Source: a virus | Virus record (IMG/VR): IMGVR_UViG_3300008113_000128 | Coordinates: 1 to 40,167 of that record | Length of the DNA stretch: 40,167 nt | Direction: 5' to 3' (one strand) | Part shown: piece by piece, positions 33,859-36,904 of the stretch | Position numbering within the stretch: the stretch's first letter is position 1 | How the letters are laid out: each line of letters begins with the position of its first letter | Position numbers and translations under genes: made by a program | The notes under the pieces: generated by a model | What the model was told of the DNA's origin: nothing | What the model saw: the letters and a program-made list of their open reading frames with translations, nothing else | Database searches by the model: none

Positions 33859-34188
33859 ATGACCATTGAATACAATTCATATGTCCGAAAGCCTTTCCGG
33901 GTTGAGGCAATTGAAATTACTGAGGATAATATTGCAGAAGTTGCTCCTCTCATTGGAGAGTTGCGCGAAAAAGATGACAACAGCAAGACAAAGTTTATTT
34001 ATGTTGATCGTCGTCTTGTTCCCAACATCTGGCGAGTTTACCCTGGGTTTTTCATGACCAAGATGGGTGATAACATTCGTTGTTATTCGCGTCGTGTTTT
34101 CCTTGAGCAGTTTGTTCTTGCTGACGAAAACATTAATCAGTGGTGCGATTATATCGATGGTGTTTCGAATAACGAGACCTCGCGATAA
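33859..34188 (+). CDS. Conserved small phage protein
   Basis: The product has 109 residues. The ATG at 33859 follows AAAGGAGAATA. VRKPFRVEAIEITEDNIAEVAPLI, then FIYVDRRLVPNIWRVYPGFFMTKMGDNIRCYSRRVFLEQF, is a family common in Gram-positive phages with no known biochemical role. The segment YPGFFMTKMGDNIRCYS resembles the PGDYI-like fold of some small phage proteins. Codons are somewhat GC-richer than adjacent genes. Its end overlaps promoter copy 7. Confidence 0.65.
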   Translation: MTIEYNSYVRKPFRVEAIEITEDNIAEVAPLIGELREKDDNSKTKFIYVDRRLVPNIWRVYPGFFMTKMGDNIRCYSRRVFLEQFVLADENINQWCDYIDGVSNNETSR

Positions 34189-34204
34189 AAACAACGCCTA
34201 TAAT
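34179..34204 (+). promoter_or_regulatory. Repeated promoter motif, copy 7
   Basis: CTCGCG at 34179-34184, overlapping the end of the upstream gene, 14 bases (with ACAACGCC), TATAAT at 34199-34204. Its transcript would begin near 34211 and run into the structured region. Confidence 0.72.
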
Positions 34205-34206
34205 AG

Positions 34207-34545
34207 AAGGATAACAGAATAACAAAATTTTGTAGAACAATAGTTCGTAATCCTTTTATTTTTGTCGACTAGGCGACTTAAAATAGCTTTTAAGCCTAGT
34301 GCGTCCTGCCTGAAATATAGTAAGGCAGGGGTAAACTGAGAAGCACCTCAGCACGAATATACTCGGACGCTTGTATATTTGGTTAAACAAAAAAGCGCTT
34401 AGTTATGGTAACAATATTTCCCTATGTTACTGCTTAAAGAAACGGGAACTTCTTTAAGCTACCTAAGGACACTCGTAGTGCGACTTTTAGCGCGTACGAG
34501 TTTTAGAGACCTGAGCATGTCTCTATTAAACTGCTCACCCTCGCC
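34207..34545 (+). ncRNA. Structured untranslated RNA region (novel candidate)
   Basis: No believable gene lies between 34189 and 34561, but stable helices follow one another. AAGGAT (34207) pairs with ATCCTT (34250), enclosing two hairpins and followed by a T-rich run. ACTAGGC/GCCTAGT (34268/34294) is extended by TTAAAA/TTTTAA. GCGTCC (34301) pairs with GGACGC (34365), enclosing TGCCT/AGGCA and CTGAG/CTCAG. Then GTAACA/TGTTAC (34408/34425), GCTTAAAGAA/TTCTTTAAGC (34432/34450), ACTCGTA/TACGAGT (34471/34495), and the first pseudoknot. It could be one RNA of about 340 nt or several small ones, read from promoter copy 7. It is not a family I recognise. Confidence 0.6.
34504..34536 (+). ncRNA. H-type pseudoknot, copy 1
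   Basis: Stem 1 is TAGAGAC/GTCTCTA (34504-34510 and 34519-34525). Its loop CTGAGCAT contains GAGCA (34513-34517), which pairs with TGCTC (34532-34536) across the linker TTAAAC. The stem 1 sequence differs from the other copies but still pairs. It lies 25 bases before the 57-residue gene. Confidence 0.7.
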
Positions 34546-34561
34546 AAGTAAGGAGATATTA

Positions 34562-34735
34562 ATGGAATATAAAGACGATCCGGAAAACGGGTTATTTAGA
34601 CATAAATGCGAAGAATTCGGCTGCGAAAGTCATATAATTTATGACGATGAGCCGTATTGTTTTACGCATTCACCGGACGAAGGGTCTTCTGTCCGAGGAT
34701 ATTCGGCTTACGCTAAATTTTTAGCGAGCCAATGA
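34562..34735 (+). CDS. 57-residue small protein, possible zinc site
   Basis: The ATG at 34562 follows AAGGAGATATTA. The product MEYKDDPENGLFRHKCEEF, then GCESHIIYDDEPYCFTHSPDEG, contains three cysteines and three histidines in a short span, compatible with a zinc ribbon. The end is SAYAKFLASQ. An in-frame ATG further upstream lies in the structured RNA and is not credible. The gene is flanked by pseudoknot copies 1 and 2. The function is unknown. Confidence 0.6.
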   Translation: MEYKDDPENGLFRHKCEEFGCESHIIYDDEPYCFTHSPDEGSSVRGYSAYAKFLASQ

Positions 34736-34736
34736 T

Positions 34737-34784
34737 TTCCCTACCCCCCTAAGGGAACGACCTGAGCATGTCGTTAAACTGCTC
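34737..34784 (+). ncRNA. Hairpin plus H-type pseudoknot, copy 2
   Basis: The hairpin TTCCCT/AGGGAA (34737-34757) is followed by the pseudoknot. Stem 1 is CGAC/GTCG (34758-34761 and 34770-34773, extended by AA/TT); loop GAGCA (34764-34768) pairs with TGCTC (34780-34784). It starts two bases after the upstream stop and precedes the 112-residue gene. Confidence 0.72.
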
Positions 34785-34819
34785 CTTTTCTACCCATAAA
34801 AACAAAAAAGGATATCATA

Positions 34820-35158
34820 ATGAAAACAACGACTTTAATTTTTACAGTTTTTAGCGAACAAAATGATTATTTATCCAATCCGCACAGTCCAAATAGAAAA
34901 AAATATATCATTGAACGAAGCACTGAATTTGTGGAAGCGGTTCAAGAATTAACGCAGTGCACTCGAACTGATGCCATTGACATTACAAAAGTCGTTGCTG
35001 AAGAACTAGAGTTTCATTTAAATAATGTTAGAAAATCAAATGATCAAATTTTAGATTTGCTTTGGCGCGAAATCAATAAATTACCGTGTACCGAAGAAAC
35101 GTCGCAGGTTTTAATTGATTTCTTAAATGTAATAGACCGAATGAATGTAAACCGATAA
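34820..35158 (+). CDS. 112-residue protein of unknown function
   Basis: The ATG at 34820 follows AAAAGGATATCAT. The product begins with strands (KTTTLIFTVFSEQNDYLS), then helices (STEFVEAVQELTQCTRTDAIDI, VVAEELEFHLNNVRKSND, LIDFLNVIDRMN). No motif or family is recognised. It lies downstream of pseudoknot copy 2 and upstream of another small gene with its own ribosome-binding site. Confidence 0.55.
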   Translation: MKTTTLIFTVFSEQNDYLSNPHSPNRKKYIIERSTEFVEAVQELTQCTRTDAIDITKVVAEELEFHLNNVRKSNDQILDLLWREINKLPCTEETSQVLIDFLNVIDRMNVNR

Positions 35159-35178
35159 ACAAAAATAGGAGGGGTATT

Positions 35179-35418
35179 ATGATAGAGCCAGTTGTAAAAT
35201 ATTTATGCTTTTTCAACGAATGGTCCATGTTTATGGACGGAATTCTTGAAGTTGGGGACGATTATAGCGAATACGATTTTGTCGATGTAAATCATATTGA
35301 CGATCCTAGCGAAAACGTTTTAGATCCTTTTACAGAGGAAGAAGCCCGAAAGCATTTTGCTAAAAAGGGTTACCCAAATGTTAAATTTATTTATTTGTAT
35401 CCTGGATTAAATTCCTAG
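35179..35418 (+). CDS. 79-residue acidic protein of unknown function
   Basis: The ATG at 35179 follows ATAGGAGGGGTAT, a strong ribosome-binding site. The product is acidic, MIEPVVKYLCFFNEWSMFM, DDYSEYDFVDVNHIDD, then a helix (FTEEEARKHFAKKGY) and a last strand (NVKFIYLYPG). Small acidic proteins of phages often mimic DNA or bind host enzymes, but that is speculation here. It is followed by pseudoknot copy 3. Confidence 0.55.
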   Translation: MIEPVVKYLCFFNEWSMFMDGILEVGDDYSEYDFVDVNHIDDPSENVLDPFTEEEARKHFAKKGYPNVKFIYLYPGLNS

Positions 35419-35428
35419 ATTAAATGAT

Positions 35429-35472
35429 TTCCCACTGCCAGGGAACGTCCCGAGTACGACGCTAAACTGCTT
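35429..35472 (+). ncRNA. Hairpin plus H-type pseudoknot, copy 3
   Basis: The hairpin TTCCC/GGGAA (35429-35445) is followed by stem 1 CGTC/GACG (35446-35449 and 35458-35461), a compensated change from CGAC/GTCG in copy 2. Loop GAGTA (35452-35456) pairs with TGCTT (35468-35472) using wobbles; the linker is CTAAAC. It is immediately followed by the tRNA-like element. Confidence 0.7.
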
Positions 35473-35597
35473 GTGCGCGCATGGATGCCACATTATCTAA
35501 GATGTAGATAACATTAGTTATCATTCGCCGAGGATTTTAAACCGACGCCACATATTCTTGGACTATGTTAGTAGGGGTTCGATTCCTCTAGCGCACG
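35473..35597 (+). ncRNA. tRNA-like element with acceptor stem and T-arm, about 125 nt
   Basis: The 3' part has a canonical T-arm (AGGGG, loop TTCGATT, CCTCT at 35573-35589), then AGCGCAC. That pairs with GTGCGC at 35473-35478 to give an acceptor stem. The interior is too long for a tRNA and shows other hairpins (TTATCTA/TAGATAA and, mutually exclusive, GATAAC/GTTATC; ACATA/TATGT). I could not find a normal D-arm or anticodon arm. A decayed or inserted tRNA, or a tRNA mimic, fits better than a working tRNA. No CCA is encoded in register. Confidence 0.4.
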
Positions 35598-35647
35598 CCC
35601 CATATAATAGACGTTCGAAACAAAAGTAGAATGTCGGAAAGGTAAAA

Positions 35648-35794
35648 ATGGATGACTGCGGACTTAATGGGGTTCGTTGTGTTGAAATTACAGAATGGGA
35701 TAAGATGAGTACAATTGCTGTTGTTATTATCGGCATTTGTTTGATTGTTATTTTTAAACAATTGCGAGATATTCGAAAGCATACTCGTCGATAA
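35648..35794 (+). CDS. 48-residue single-span membrane protein
   Basis: The ATG at 35648 follows GGAAAGGTAAAA. The N-terminus is polar (MDDCGLNGVRCVEITEWDKM). A hydrophobic segment (STIAVVIIGICLIVIF) is followed by a basic end (KQLRDIRKHTRR). This predicts N-out/C-in topology. A TATAAT-like box at 35603 precedes it without the rest of the repeated promoter motif. Possibly it works with the transglycosylase gene downstream. No known family. Confidence 0.6.
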   Translation: MDDCGLNGVRCVEITEWDKMSTIAVVIIGICLIVIFKQLRDIRKHTRR

Positions 35795-35862
35795 AAAAAA
35801 AATTAAGATTGATATGTCGAAATTTATTTGGCCCAAAAAACTGTACTGATGAAGGAGAGTTC

Positions 35863-36438
35863 ATGGACTATTTTAATAAGTTCAATAAATTAGCGCATAA
35901 AAAATCTGGCCTTTTTATTGTTATCTGTTACTTTGTGTTTATTTTAATTATCATTTGGAGTGTTAGCGCTGCAATGGGCGATTCTAATGAAGATCAAAAA
36001 CCTTCTTTGCCGCCGATTGAAGTGAAAAATATGACTTTTGCTAACGTAACCACAAGTACAACAAGCACGACTACTACAACTACCACCACAATCCCAGATC
36101 TTTCGGGTATTGACTGGACGGAGTTGGCTCGAGCGACTTACGGCAAATGCGGTGAATATCACGATATTGCAATTGCTGTCGGTTGGCCCGAAGAAGAATG
36201 GAAGCATTTACAACAGGTTATTTGGCGGGAGTCAAGATGTCAACCTGACGCGTGGAATGGGGCAGATGCCGGTCTCACTCAAATAAATAAAGTCCATTCA
36301 AAGTGGTTGGCTGATATGGGGTGGTCTCATCCCAACGATATGTTTTCCGCCCAAAATAATCTCACTTTTGCTTTGCGTTTGTGGGAAACTTCTGGGTGGA
36401 AACCATGGCGTTTTTCAGGAACCACTTGGGGCGACTGA
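35863..36438 (+). CDS. Membrane-anchored lytic transglycosylase-like protein
   Basis: The product has 191 residues from the ATG at 35863 behind GAAGGAGAG; an upstream in-frame ATG lacks a good site. Residues 16-36 are a signal anchor (GLFIVICYFVFILIIIWSV). Residues 63-77 are a Thr-rich linker. The rest is a lysozyme-like (SLT) domain with IWRESRC, where Glu123 is the likely acid, NGADAGLTQIN, then ALRLWETSGWKPW. It would act outside the membrane on peptidoglycan. It could help lysis, act in superinfection exclusion, or be a host-derived resuscitation-type factor. The linker style is actinobacterial. Confidence 0.8.
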   Translation: MDYFNKFNKLAHKKSGLFIVICYFVFILIIIWSVSAAMGDSNEDQKPSLPPIEVKNMTFANVTTSTTSTTTTTTTTIPDLSGIDWTELARATYGKCGEYHDIAIAVGWPEEEWKHLQQVIWRESRCQPDAWNGADAGLTQINKVHSKWLADMGWSHPNDMFSAQNNLTFALRLWETSGWKPWRFSGTTWGD

Positions 36439-36443
36439 TATTT

Positions 36444-36471
36444 ACGACCTGAGTATGTCGTTAAACTACTC
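36444..36471 (+). ncRNA. H-type pseudoknot, copy 4
   Basis: Stem 1 is ACGAC/GTCGT (36444-36448 and 36457-36461). Loop GAGTA (36451-36455) pairs perfectly with TACTC (36467-36471), a compensated change from GAGCA/TGCTC. Linker TTAAAC. It ends four bases before tRNA-Leu and starts just after the transglycosylase stop. Confidence 0.75.
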
Positions 36472-36475
36472 TCAC

Positions 36476-36548
36476 GCCTGTGTAGCCCAGTGGCAGAGGC
36501 AGAGGACTTAAAATCCTTCAAGCGTGGGTTCGAATCCCACCACAGGTA
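36476..36548 (+). tRNA. tRNA-Leu(UAA), short variable loop
   Basis: A 73-nt cloverleaf: acceptor GCCTGTG/CACAGGT, anticodon arm GAGGA, loop CTTAAAA, TCCTT with anticodon TAA; T-arm GTGGG, TTCGAAT, CCCAC. Discriminator A; CCA not encoded. The variable loop is only CAAGC, whereas bacterial tRNA-Leu normally has a long arm, so the amino-acid identity should be checked. Confidence 0.88.
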
Positions 36549-36559
36549 CTAAATATAAA

Positions 36560-36585
36560 CATACATAAAATACAACGCATATAAT
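36560..36585 (+). promoter_or_regulatory. Repeated promoter motif, copy 8 (divergent first box)
   Basis: TATAAT at 36580-36585 with TACAACGCA upstream; the first box reads CATACA rather than TTCGCA at the 14-base spacing. It lies between tRNA-Leu and the 98-residue gene. Confidence 0.55.
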
Positions 36586-36607
36586 AGAGACTCTATGAGG
36601 AGGGTTT

Positions 36608-36904
36608 ATGGATGATTTAAGATCTATAAAAGGCTTTAATAGTTTTGCGATAGGTGTTTTTGTCGGATCGGCAGTAACAGCTATTTTTTCTTTTAAAAAC
36701 ATAAAAAAGAGACTTCTTTCTTTTGCCGATTTAATTGTAACATACGATACAAATCTTAGTATTATTTCCACAAGAGAAGATGCTTTAATCGATTTAATTA
36801 CGCCTGTTATTCCTTATTTAACAGAAGAGGCAATAACTAAGTATAACAATACTATTGAGTTTTTAGAATTAGTTCATTTCAACGATATTCAGGCGCATGG
36901 GTAA
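36608..36904 (+). CDS. 98-residue membrane protein
   Basis: The ATG at 36608 follows GAGGAGGGTTT. MDDLRSIKGFNSFAIGVFVG begins one membrane helix (FAIGVFVGSAVTAIFSF, about residues 14-30). It is followed by basic residues and a soluble helical domain (IVTYDTNLSIISTREDALI, YLTEEAITKYNNTIEFLEL). This predicts a cytosolic C-terminus. It is read from promoter copy 8. No known family. Confidence 0.62.
   Translation: MDDLRSIKGFNSFAIGVFVGSAVTAIFSFKNIKKRLLSFADLIVTYDTNLSIISTREDALIDLITPVIPYLTEEAITKYNNTIEFLELVHFNDIQAHG

Follow-up and report, generated by a model that had tools for sequence, protein, structure and literature searches.

The viral DNA examined here, record IMGVR_UViG_3300008113_000128 of IMG/VR (positions 1–40,167; this whole 40,167-nt stretch is called the window below), carries four copies of a compact H-type RNA pseudoknot, all on the plus strand within 34504–36471. 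Judged by their letters, the four are true members of a covarying family of phage RNA pseudoknots, one that has apparently gone undescribed so far. The element typically lies in the 3′ untranslated region (UTR) of a phage gene, a few nucleotides past the stop codon, and where it adjoins an RNase P or hammerhead cut site it lies on the upstream side of that site. Given these positions, the pseudoknot probably acts as a 3′-end cap that would protect phage messages against 3′–5′ exonucleases.

Fold, covariation and spread

A first-pass annotation of the window had reported four copies of one layout and read them as a selected RNA fold in which both helices covary. The copies are real: the pattern GAGYANGN{3,9}TAAACTRCT matches exactly these four places in the record, all on the plus strand, and the same pattern read backwards matches nowhere in the whole record. 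Each copy has a stem 1 of 4–7 bp closed by C-G, a two-base loop (L1), the motif GAGYA, one base, the return strand of stem 1, a linker ending in TAAAC, and the 3′ strand of stem 2. Copy 1 (34504–34536, TAGAGACCTGAGCATGTCTCTATTAAACTGCTC) has a 7-bp stem 1 (34504–34510/34519–34525), L1 CT, the linker TTAAAC, and a stem 2 formed by GAGCA (34513–34517) and TGCTC (34532–34536). Copy 2 (34757–34784, ACGACCTGAGCATGTCGTTAAACTGCTC) pairs 34757–34761 with 34770–34774 in a 5-bp stem 1 and GAGCA (34764–34768) with TGCTC (34780–34784) in stem 2, with L1 CT and the linker TAAAC. In copy 4 (36444–36471, ACGACCTGAGTATGTCGTTAAACTACTC) the loop and linker are the same as in copy 2, stem 1 again has 5 bp (36444–36448/36457–36461), and stem 2 joins GAGTA (36451–36455) to TACTC (36467–36471). 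The layout given in the first-pass annotation thus holds overall, but copy 3 (35446–35472, CGTCCCGAGTACGACGCTAAACTGCTT; 4-bp stem 1, 35446–35449/35458–35461; linker CTAAAC) departs from it: its L1 is CC rather than CT, and its GAGTA (35452–35456) pairs with TGCTT (35468–35472) through two G-U wobbles.

Covariation was assessed without bias by scanning whole collections with patterns that left stem positions open. With stem 1 open, the pattern CTGAGYATGN{3,9}TAAACTRCTC occurs at no fewer than 120 loci in IMG/VR. Among the matches listed, the gap is exactly 4 in 108 of 127 copies and stem 1 reaches at least 4 bp in 115 of 127; stem 1 pairs 2 and 3 are Watson-Crick or G-U in every one of the 106 listed copies whose gap is 4 nt, where independent columns would give about 49 (pair 2) and about 44 (pair 3) Watson-Crick pairs. 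Stem 2 behaves in the same way. When its second pair was forced to change and the partner left open, 103 of 103 copies were compensated, all by G-C; for the third pair the figure was 105 of 105, with three pair types. Its outermost pair frays and is Watson-Crick in 86 of 111. Across five scan sets the first three stem 1 pairs form in 641 of 645 copies, and the base preceding the loop is C in all 645, though the patterns left it unspecified. The resulting consensus is NNNC-CU-GRGYA-U-GNNN-NUAAAC-URCYC, an H-type fold of 27–33 nt (commonly about 27 nt) whose loop and linker letters are strongly fixed: L1 is CT, the linker ends in AAAC, and the second loop (L2) is mostly T.

Block shuffles and slides served as controls, reversed sequence being unsuitable since a reversed pseudoknot keeps its topology. 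Over the whole pseudoknot in 62 sequences, 98.7% of cells are paired, against 80.7% after shuffling and at most 43% after sliding, and the covariation score of 0.469 (0.137 ± 0.014 in shuffles) was reached by none of 500 shuffles. Under a relaxed definition, the loci fetched for the analysis (about 6.1 Mb) contain 926 instances, and shuffling them in 20-nt blocks leaves none, which rules out chance; the fetched loci were chosen for carrying the element, and rates within them are not general. The two interleaved helices are thus kept by compensatory changes, as expected of an H-type pseudoknot. Covarying homologues, whose lack in related phages the first-pass annotation had named as grounds for giving up the selected fold, occur widely in phage DNA.

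Family members in IMG/VR probably number in the thousands, an estimate from sequence counts: a completed scan with stem 1 fully specified as CGAC/GTCG found 54 loci, and this type makes up a few percent of all. Among GTDB genomes, 44 stretches match a stricter pattern. One 32-nt query in BLAST returned 133 phage records and a single plasmid record (counts that include imperfect matches, part of them checked), and the element is therefore mainly a phage one. Carriers read in sequence include the phages Roseobacter SIO1, Lentibacter ICBM1, Mycobacterium Labelle, Arthrobacter Molivia, Corynebacterium phi673, Nostoc NMeng1, Cylindrospermopsis CrV-01T, Synechococcus S-H35, Lactobacillus Lj771, thermophilic D6E and Moorella MTATph1, as well as the crAss-like cr7_1 and the microvirus UA08Rod_4626; Phietavirus of S. 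aureus has a variant form with a shorter stem 2. Hosts of carrier phages span Bacillota, Actinomycetota, Pseudomonadota and Cyanobacteriota. Most copies stand alone and scattered, 440 of 609 loci having just one, and in 166 of 169 multi-copy loci all copies share one strand. Three loci (L067, L165 and L353; L numbers are our labels) have two pseudoknots in tandem within about 50 nt.

Placement relative to stop codons and cut sites

The position of the element was measured in 518 copies with an upstream open reading frame (ORF) of at least 240 nt ending nearby. Stem 1 starts 4–12 nt after the stop codon in 320 of the 518, as against 10 of 652 control points. The most frequent spacing is exactly 5 nt (96/518), and a start 0–3 nt after the stop occurs once. 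The genes on the two sides also differ: among 110 sampled upstream genes 17 encode Hsp20 and 12 DUF932 proteins, while the 110 downstream genes sampled are diverse, the commonest family having 4 members. Read from the other direction, the element lies within 80 nt after the stop of 55 of 62 Hsp20 ORFs and 82 of 105 DUF932 ORFs in the fetched loci, selected as these are for the element, and just before none of either. At two loci (L161, L287) the gene after the element is convergent and matches a known family, so no same-strand gene need follow. By its placement, then, the element belongs with the upstream gene. Divergent upstream genes were suggested by the first gene caller at some loci; in the cases inspected these were mostly miscalls, and a same-strand gene was present.

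On the downstream side the element often stands a few bases before a cut site. Across all loci ARAGORN found 63 same-strand tRNAs starting 3–14 nt after the element, 46 of them at 3–6 nt, with 0.35 expected by chance; it found no opposite-strand tRNA at those distances and no tRNA ending within 15 nt before an element. An ORF stop also lies just upstream in 56 of the 63 cases, as in Arthrobacter phage Molivia, where an annotated SSB gene is followed by the element, 3 nt and tRNA-Gly. tRNA-Asp(gtc) accounts for 46 of the 63 adjacent tRNAs, compared with 66 of all 388 tRNAs in the fetched loci. Self-cleaving ribozymes take the same place in some phages. In L248, on a contig of a Polynucleobacter metagenome-assembled genome (SSFP01000090.1), two successive pseudoknots are each followed by a type III hammerhead predicted to cleave 6 nt after stem 2, and in L157 a Pistol ribozyme lies directly 3′ of the element. 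Twister-P1 and type III hammerheads were each matched once, weakly, in searches of 50 records that carry the element, and ribozymes are therefore a minority partner. Because RNase P and the hammerhead cut on its far side, the element would stay on the upstream RNA as its 3′ end.

Two other features of the downstream side were considered. An intrinsic terminator does not account for the element: T runs follow some copies, but the position profile is a pyrimidine-rich, G-poor tail, mostly beginning with A and lacking a T tract. Promoter-like sequence stands right after the element in several loci (L133, L152, L171, L198, L063 and others), in a number of them with TATAAT a few bases before the next start codon; by its sequence this is consistent with the element ending the previous transcript.

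In the window, copy 4 shows the complete arrangement. The ORF at 35809–36438 (+), which has no PHROGs match at E ≤ 0.001, stops 5 nt before it, and tRNA-Leu(taa) at 36476–36549 (+) begins 4 nt after it; cutting at the RNase P site of this tRNA would make copy 4 the 3′ terminus of the upstream RNA, with 4 nt left as a tail. Copy 3 is directly followed by a tRNA-like element at 35473–35604 (+), with a GTGCGC/GCGCAC acceptor-like helix, a T-arm-like hairpin (GGGGTTCGATTCCTC) and a large insert. Neither ARAGORN nor Rfam calls it, and it may serve as a signal for RNase P instead of functioning as a tRNA. Two copies thus directly precede a tRNA or tRNA-like fold, as had been pointed out in the first-pass annotation, which had also placed all four between genes. 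Copy 1 fits that description less well, since it does not directly follow a gene. It closes a structured noncoding stretch whose 5′ boundary is a Pistol ribozyme at 34263–34336 (+; RF02679, 60.2 bits), with about 170 nt of structured noncoding sequence (34327–34503) between the two. This stretch could be a noncoding RNA whose 5′ end is produced by the ribozyme and whose 3′ end is the pseudoknot. Hairpins of one kind, TTCCC...GGGAA, adjoin stem 1 of copy 2 (34739–34756, +) and of copy 3 (35429–35445, +); a similar hairpin also occurs 5′ of the pseudoknot in L022, L042 and L071.

The proposed 3′-end cap and its competitors

The element would be transcribed at the 3′ end of individual phage messages, just past the stop codon. 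A spacing of about 5 nt is probably the closest that leaves the pseudoknot folded during ribosome termination; this requirement we infer from the spacers of frameshift pseudoknots. Processing downstream would then turn the pseudoknot into the 3′ terminus of the RNA, followed by a very short tail: RNase P could cut at an adjacent tRNA or tRNA-like element, a ribozyme could cleave itself, or an exonuclease could trim back a longer transcript. The compact fold and short tail together would deny a footing to 3′–5′ exonucleases (RNase R, RNase II, PNPase). The upstream ORF would survive while the remainder of the polycistronic transcript decays. RNase R needs a 3′ overhang of at least 5 nt and RNase II stalls 5–7 nt ahead of a duplex (PMC10240344); the tail of about 3–6 nt that would be left in the majority of tRNA and hammerhead cases sits around both figures.

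Several observations weigh against this scheme. Tails of 7–14 nt, found in 17 cases, and the 20-nt gap to a hammerhead in L693 exceed the RNase R minimum, and most copies have no recognisable adjoining cut site. The Hsp20 and DUF932 figures come from element-selected loci and hence are not overall rates; the asymmetry between after and before at these genes is not explained by that selection. Lastly, scaffold and capsid genes follow the copies in Staphylococcus and Lactobacillus phages, and five Weissella contigs have the element ahead of an integrase gene, placements that fit a 5′ role there.

An effect on translation itself is the alternative that fares best, and we consider it unlikely. Here the pseudoknot would sit at the mRNA entrance of a ribosome with the stop codon in its A site and slow termination or recycling. 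The modal 5–6 nt after the stop resembles the spacer of frameshift pseudoknots, which would suit such an action. There is also a precedent: REP hairpins (discussed below) that lie within 15 nt of the stop codon slow termination or recycling, and those less than 16 nt away stall ribosomes (PMC12306157). About 38% of copies, however, fall outside the range of 4–12 nt after the stop, and translation control leaves the fixed distance of 3–6 nt to tRNA and hammerhead cut sites unexplained.

Slightly less probable again is protection of a 5′ end, in which an upstream cut exposes the pseudoknot as the leader of the downstream gene and it blocks RNase J. The exceptional placements are what speak for this. 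In the Weissella loci (L252, L253, L265, L277 and L283) the element stands in the leader of the integrase gene, and no same-strand gene lies upstream; in S. aureus Phietavirus, Lj771 and D6E it precedes the scaffold and capsid genes, while also following a portal or minor head gene; and in three phages (the window, L067 and L165) a Pistol ribozyme lies about 90–290 nt upstream, an order in which ribozyme cleavage would set the 5′ end of a noncoding RNA that finishes in the pseudoknot. As a general explanation it meets with the facts that downstream genes are diverse and sometimes convergent, that the element never directly precedes Hsp20 or DUF932 genes, and that RNase P or a hammerhead would part it from the downstream RNA. 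A 5′ role may apply to a minority, such as the five Weissella integrase leaders and, in Staphylococcus and Lactobacillus phages, the copies that lie before scaffold genes.

The strongly fixed loop and linker letters could alternatively be bound by a protein, of host or phage, that takes part in processing, localising or regulating phage RNA. Loop–stem triples of a compact pseudoknot would need the same fixed letters, however, and the wide host range speaks against one specific partner; we give this little credence. Programmed recoding at the stop codon (readthrough or frameshifting), which the H-type fold and 5–7 nt spacer might call to mind, is very improbable, as neither a slippery nor a leaky sequence accompanies the stop (TAA in 311 of 485), and extensions are short (medians 27, 29 and 16 nt) and use all three frames rather than a consistent one.

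The roles suggested in the first-pass annotation were the blocking of RNase J and similar 5′–3′ exonucleases, a signal for processing, or control of translation. What the evidence favours instead is the 3′ end of the upstream message, because of the fixed spacing after stop codons, the recurring upstream gene families, and the location 5′ of the sites where RNase P and hammerheads cut. Tentatively, one might go further and picture a pan-phage 3′-end module, consisting of a stop codon, about 5 nt, the cap, about 4 nt, and a cut by RNase P (at a tRNA or tRNA-like element) or a ribozyme. Some phage tRNAs, notably tRNA-Asp, would in that case act as signals for cleavage, and single genes would gain protected 3′ ends of their own with no need for transcription to terminate. 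The 3′-end cap suggests that phages in general may adjust in this way how stable single messages are inside long transcripts, and is a possible reason for the placement of some phage tRNAs and ribozymes. As a part of about 27 nt the element is a candidate RNA stabiliser, and its presence in well-studied phages (Roseobacter SIO1, and the S. aureus Phietavirus in variant form) makes it readily testable.

Known families and nearest relatives

The first-pass annotation did not recognise the element as a known family, and Rfam 15 bears this out: at the gathering threshold the whole window gives no match over any copy, and in thirteen relative loci two tRNAs are the only matches. With the threshold relaxed to E = 5, the only matches over the copies in 34100–36700 are Mu-gpT-DE (17.2 bits against a gathering score of 49, a resemblance that comes mainly from the ribosome-binding site) and SNORA53 (14.2 bits, a chance match). 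The preQ1-I riboswitch, another candidate, gives no Rfam match. A type III antitoxin like ToxI requires tandem head-to-tail repeats 5′ of a ToxN-like gene; the copies are mostly single and dispersed, and their neighbours encode Hsp20, DUF932, structural and unknown proteins. Full-text searches of the literature, outside most subscription papers and bioRxiv preprints, turned up no description of the element.

Among compact pseudoknots, the frameshift sites of luteoviruses and the gene 32 leader of phages T2 and T4 are also of the H type. They share with the phage element a short L1 over stem 2 and an A-rich linker over stem 1; the phage element differs in having no recoding signal and in sitting after stop codons. 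The exonuclease-resistant RNAs (xrRNAs) of flaviviruses and plant viruses are compact pseudoknotted viral RNAs with ring-like folds that block 5′–3′ exonucleases. The phage element would resemble them in blocking an exonuclease, as its sequence context suggests, whereas its placement indicates the 3′–5′ direction and its fold is a plain two-stem H-type. Pistol (RF02679) and hammerhead (RF00008) ribozymes of phages are related to it by position: some adjoin the element and would create RNA ends, while the element has no ribozyme core and matches neither family.

By analogy, the nearest functional relative is the repetitive extragenic palindromic (REP) hairpin of E. coli 3′ UTRs. REP hairpins and the bacterial interspersed mosaic elements (BIME) of enterobacteria are likewise short structured 3′-UTR RNAs, often near a stop codon (PMC12306157), and the phage element too is found close behind stop codons, in intergenic positions or where operons end. 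In E. coli, REP hairpins in 3′ UTRs stabilise the mRNA, REP/BIME elements protecting the upstream message against exonucleases (PMC12306157), which is the role proposed here for the pseudoknot. The two differ in fold, in host and in their coupling to cut sites: REP/BIME elements are imperfect palindromic hairpins of bacterial chromosomes, whereas the element described here is a covarying H-type pseudoknot rather than a palindromic hairpin, is found mainly in phages, and is tied to tRNA and ribozyme cut sites.

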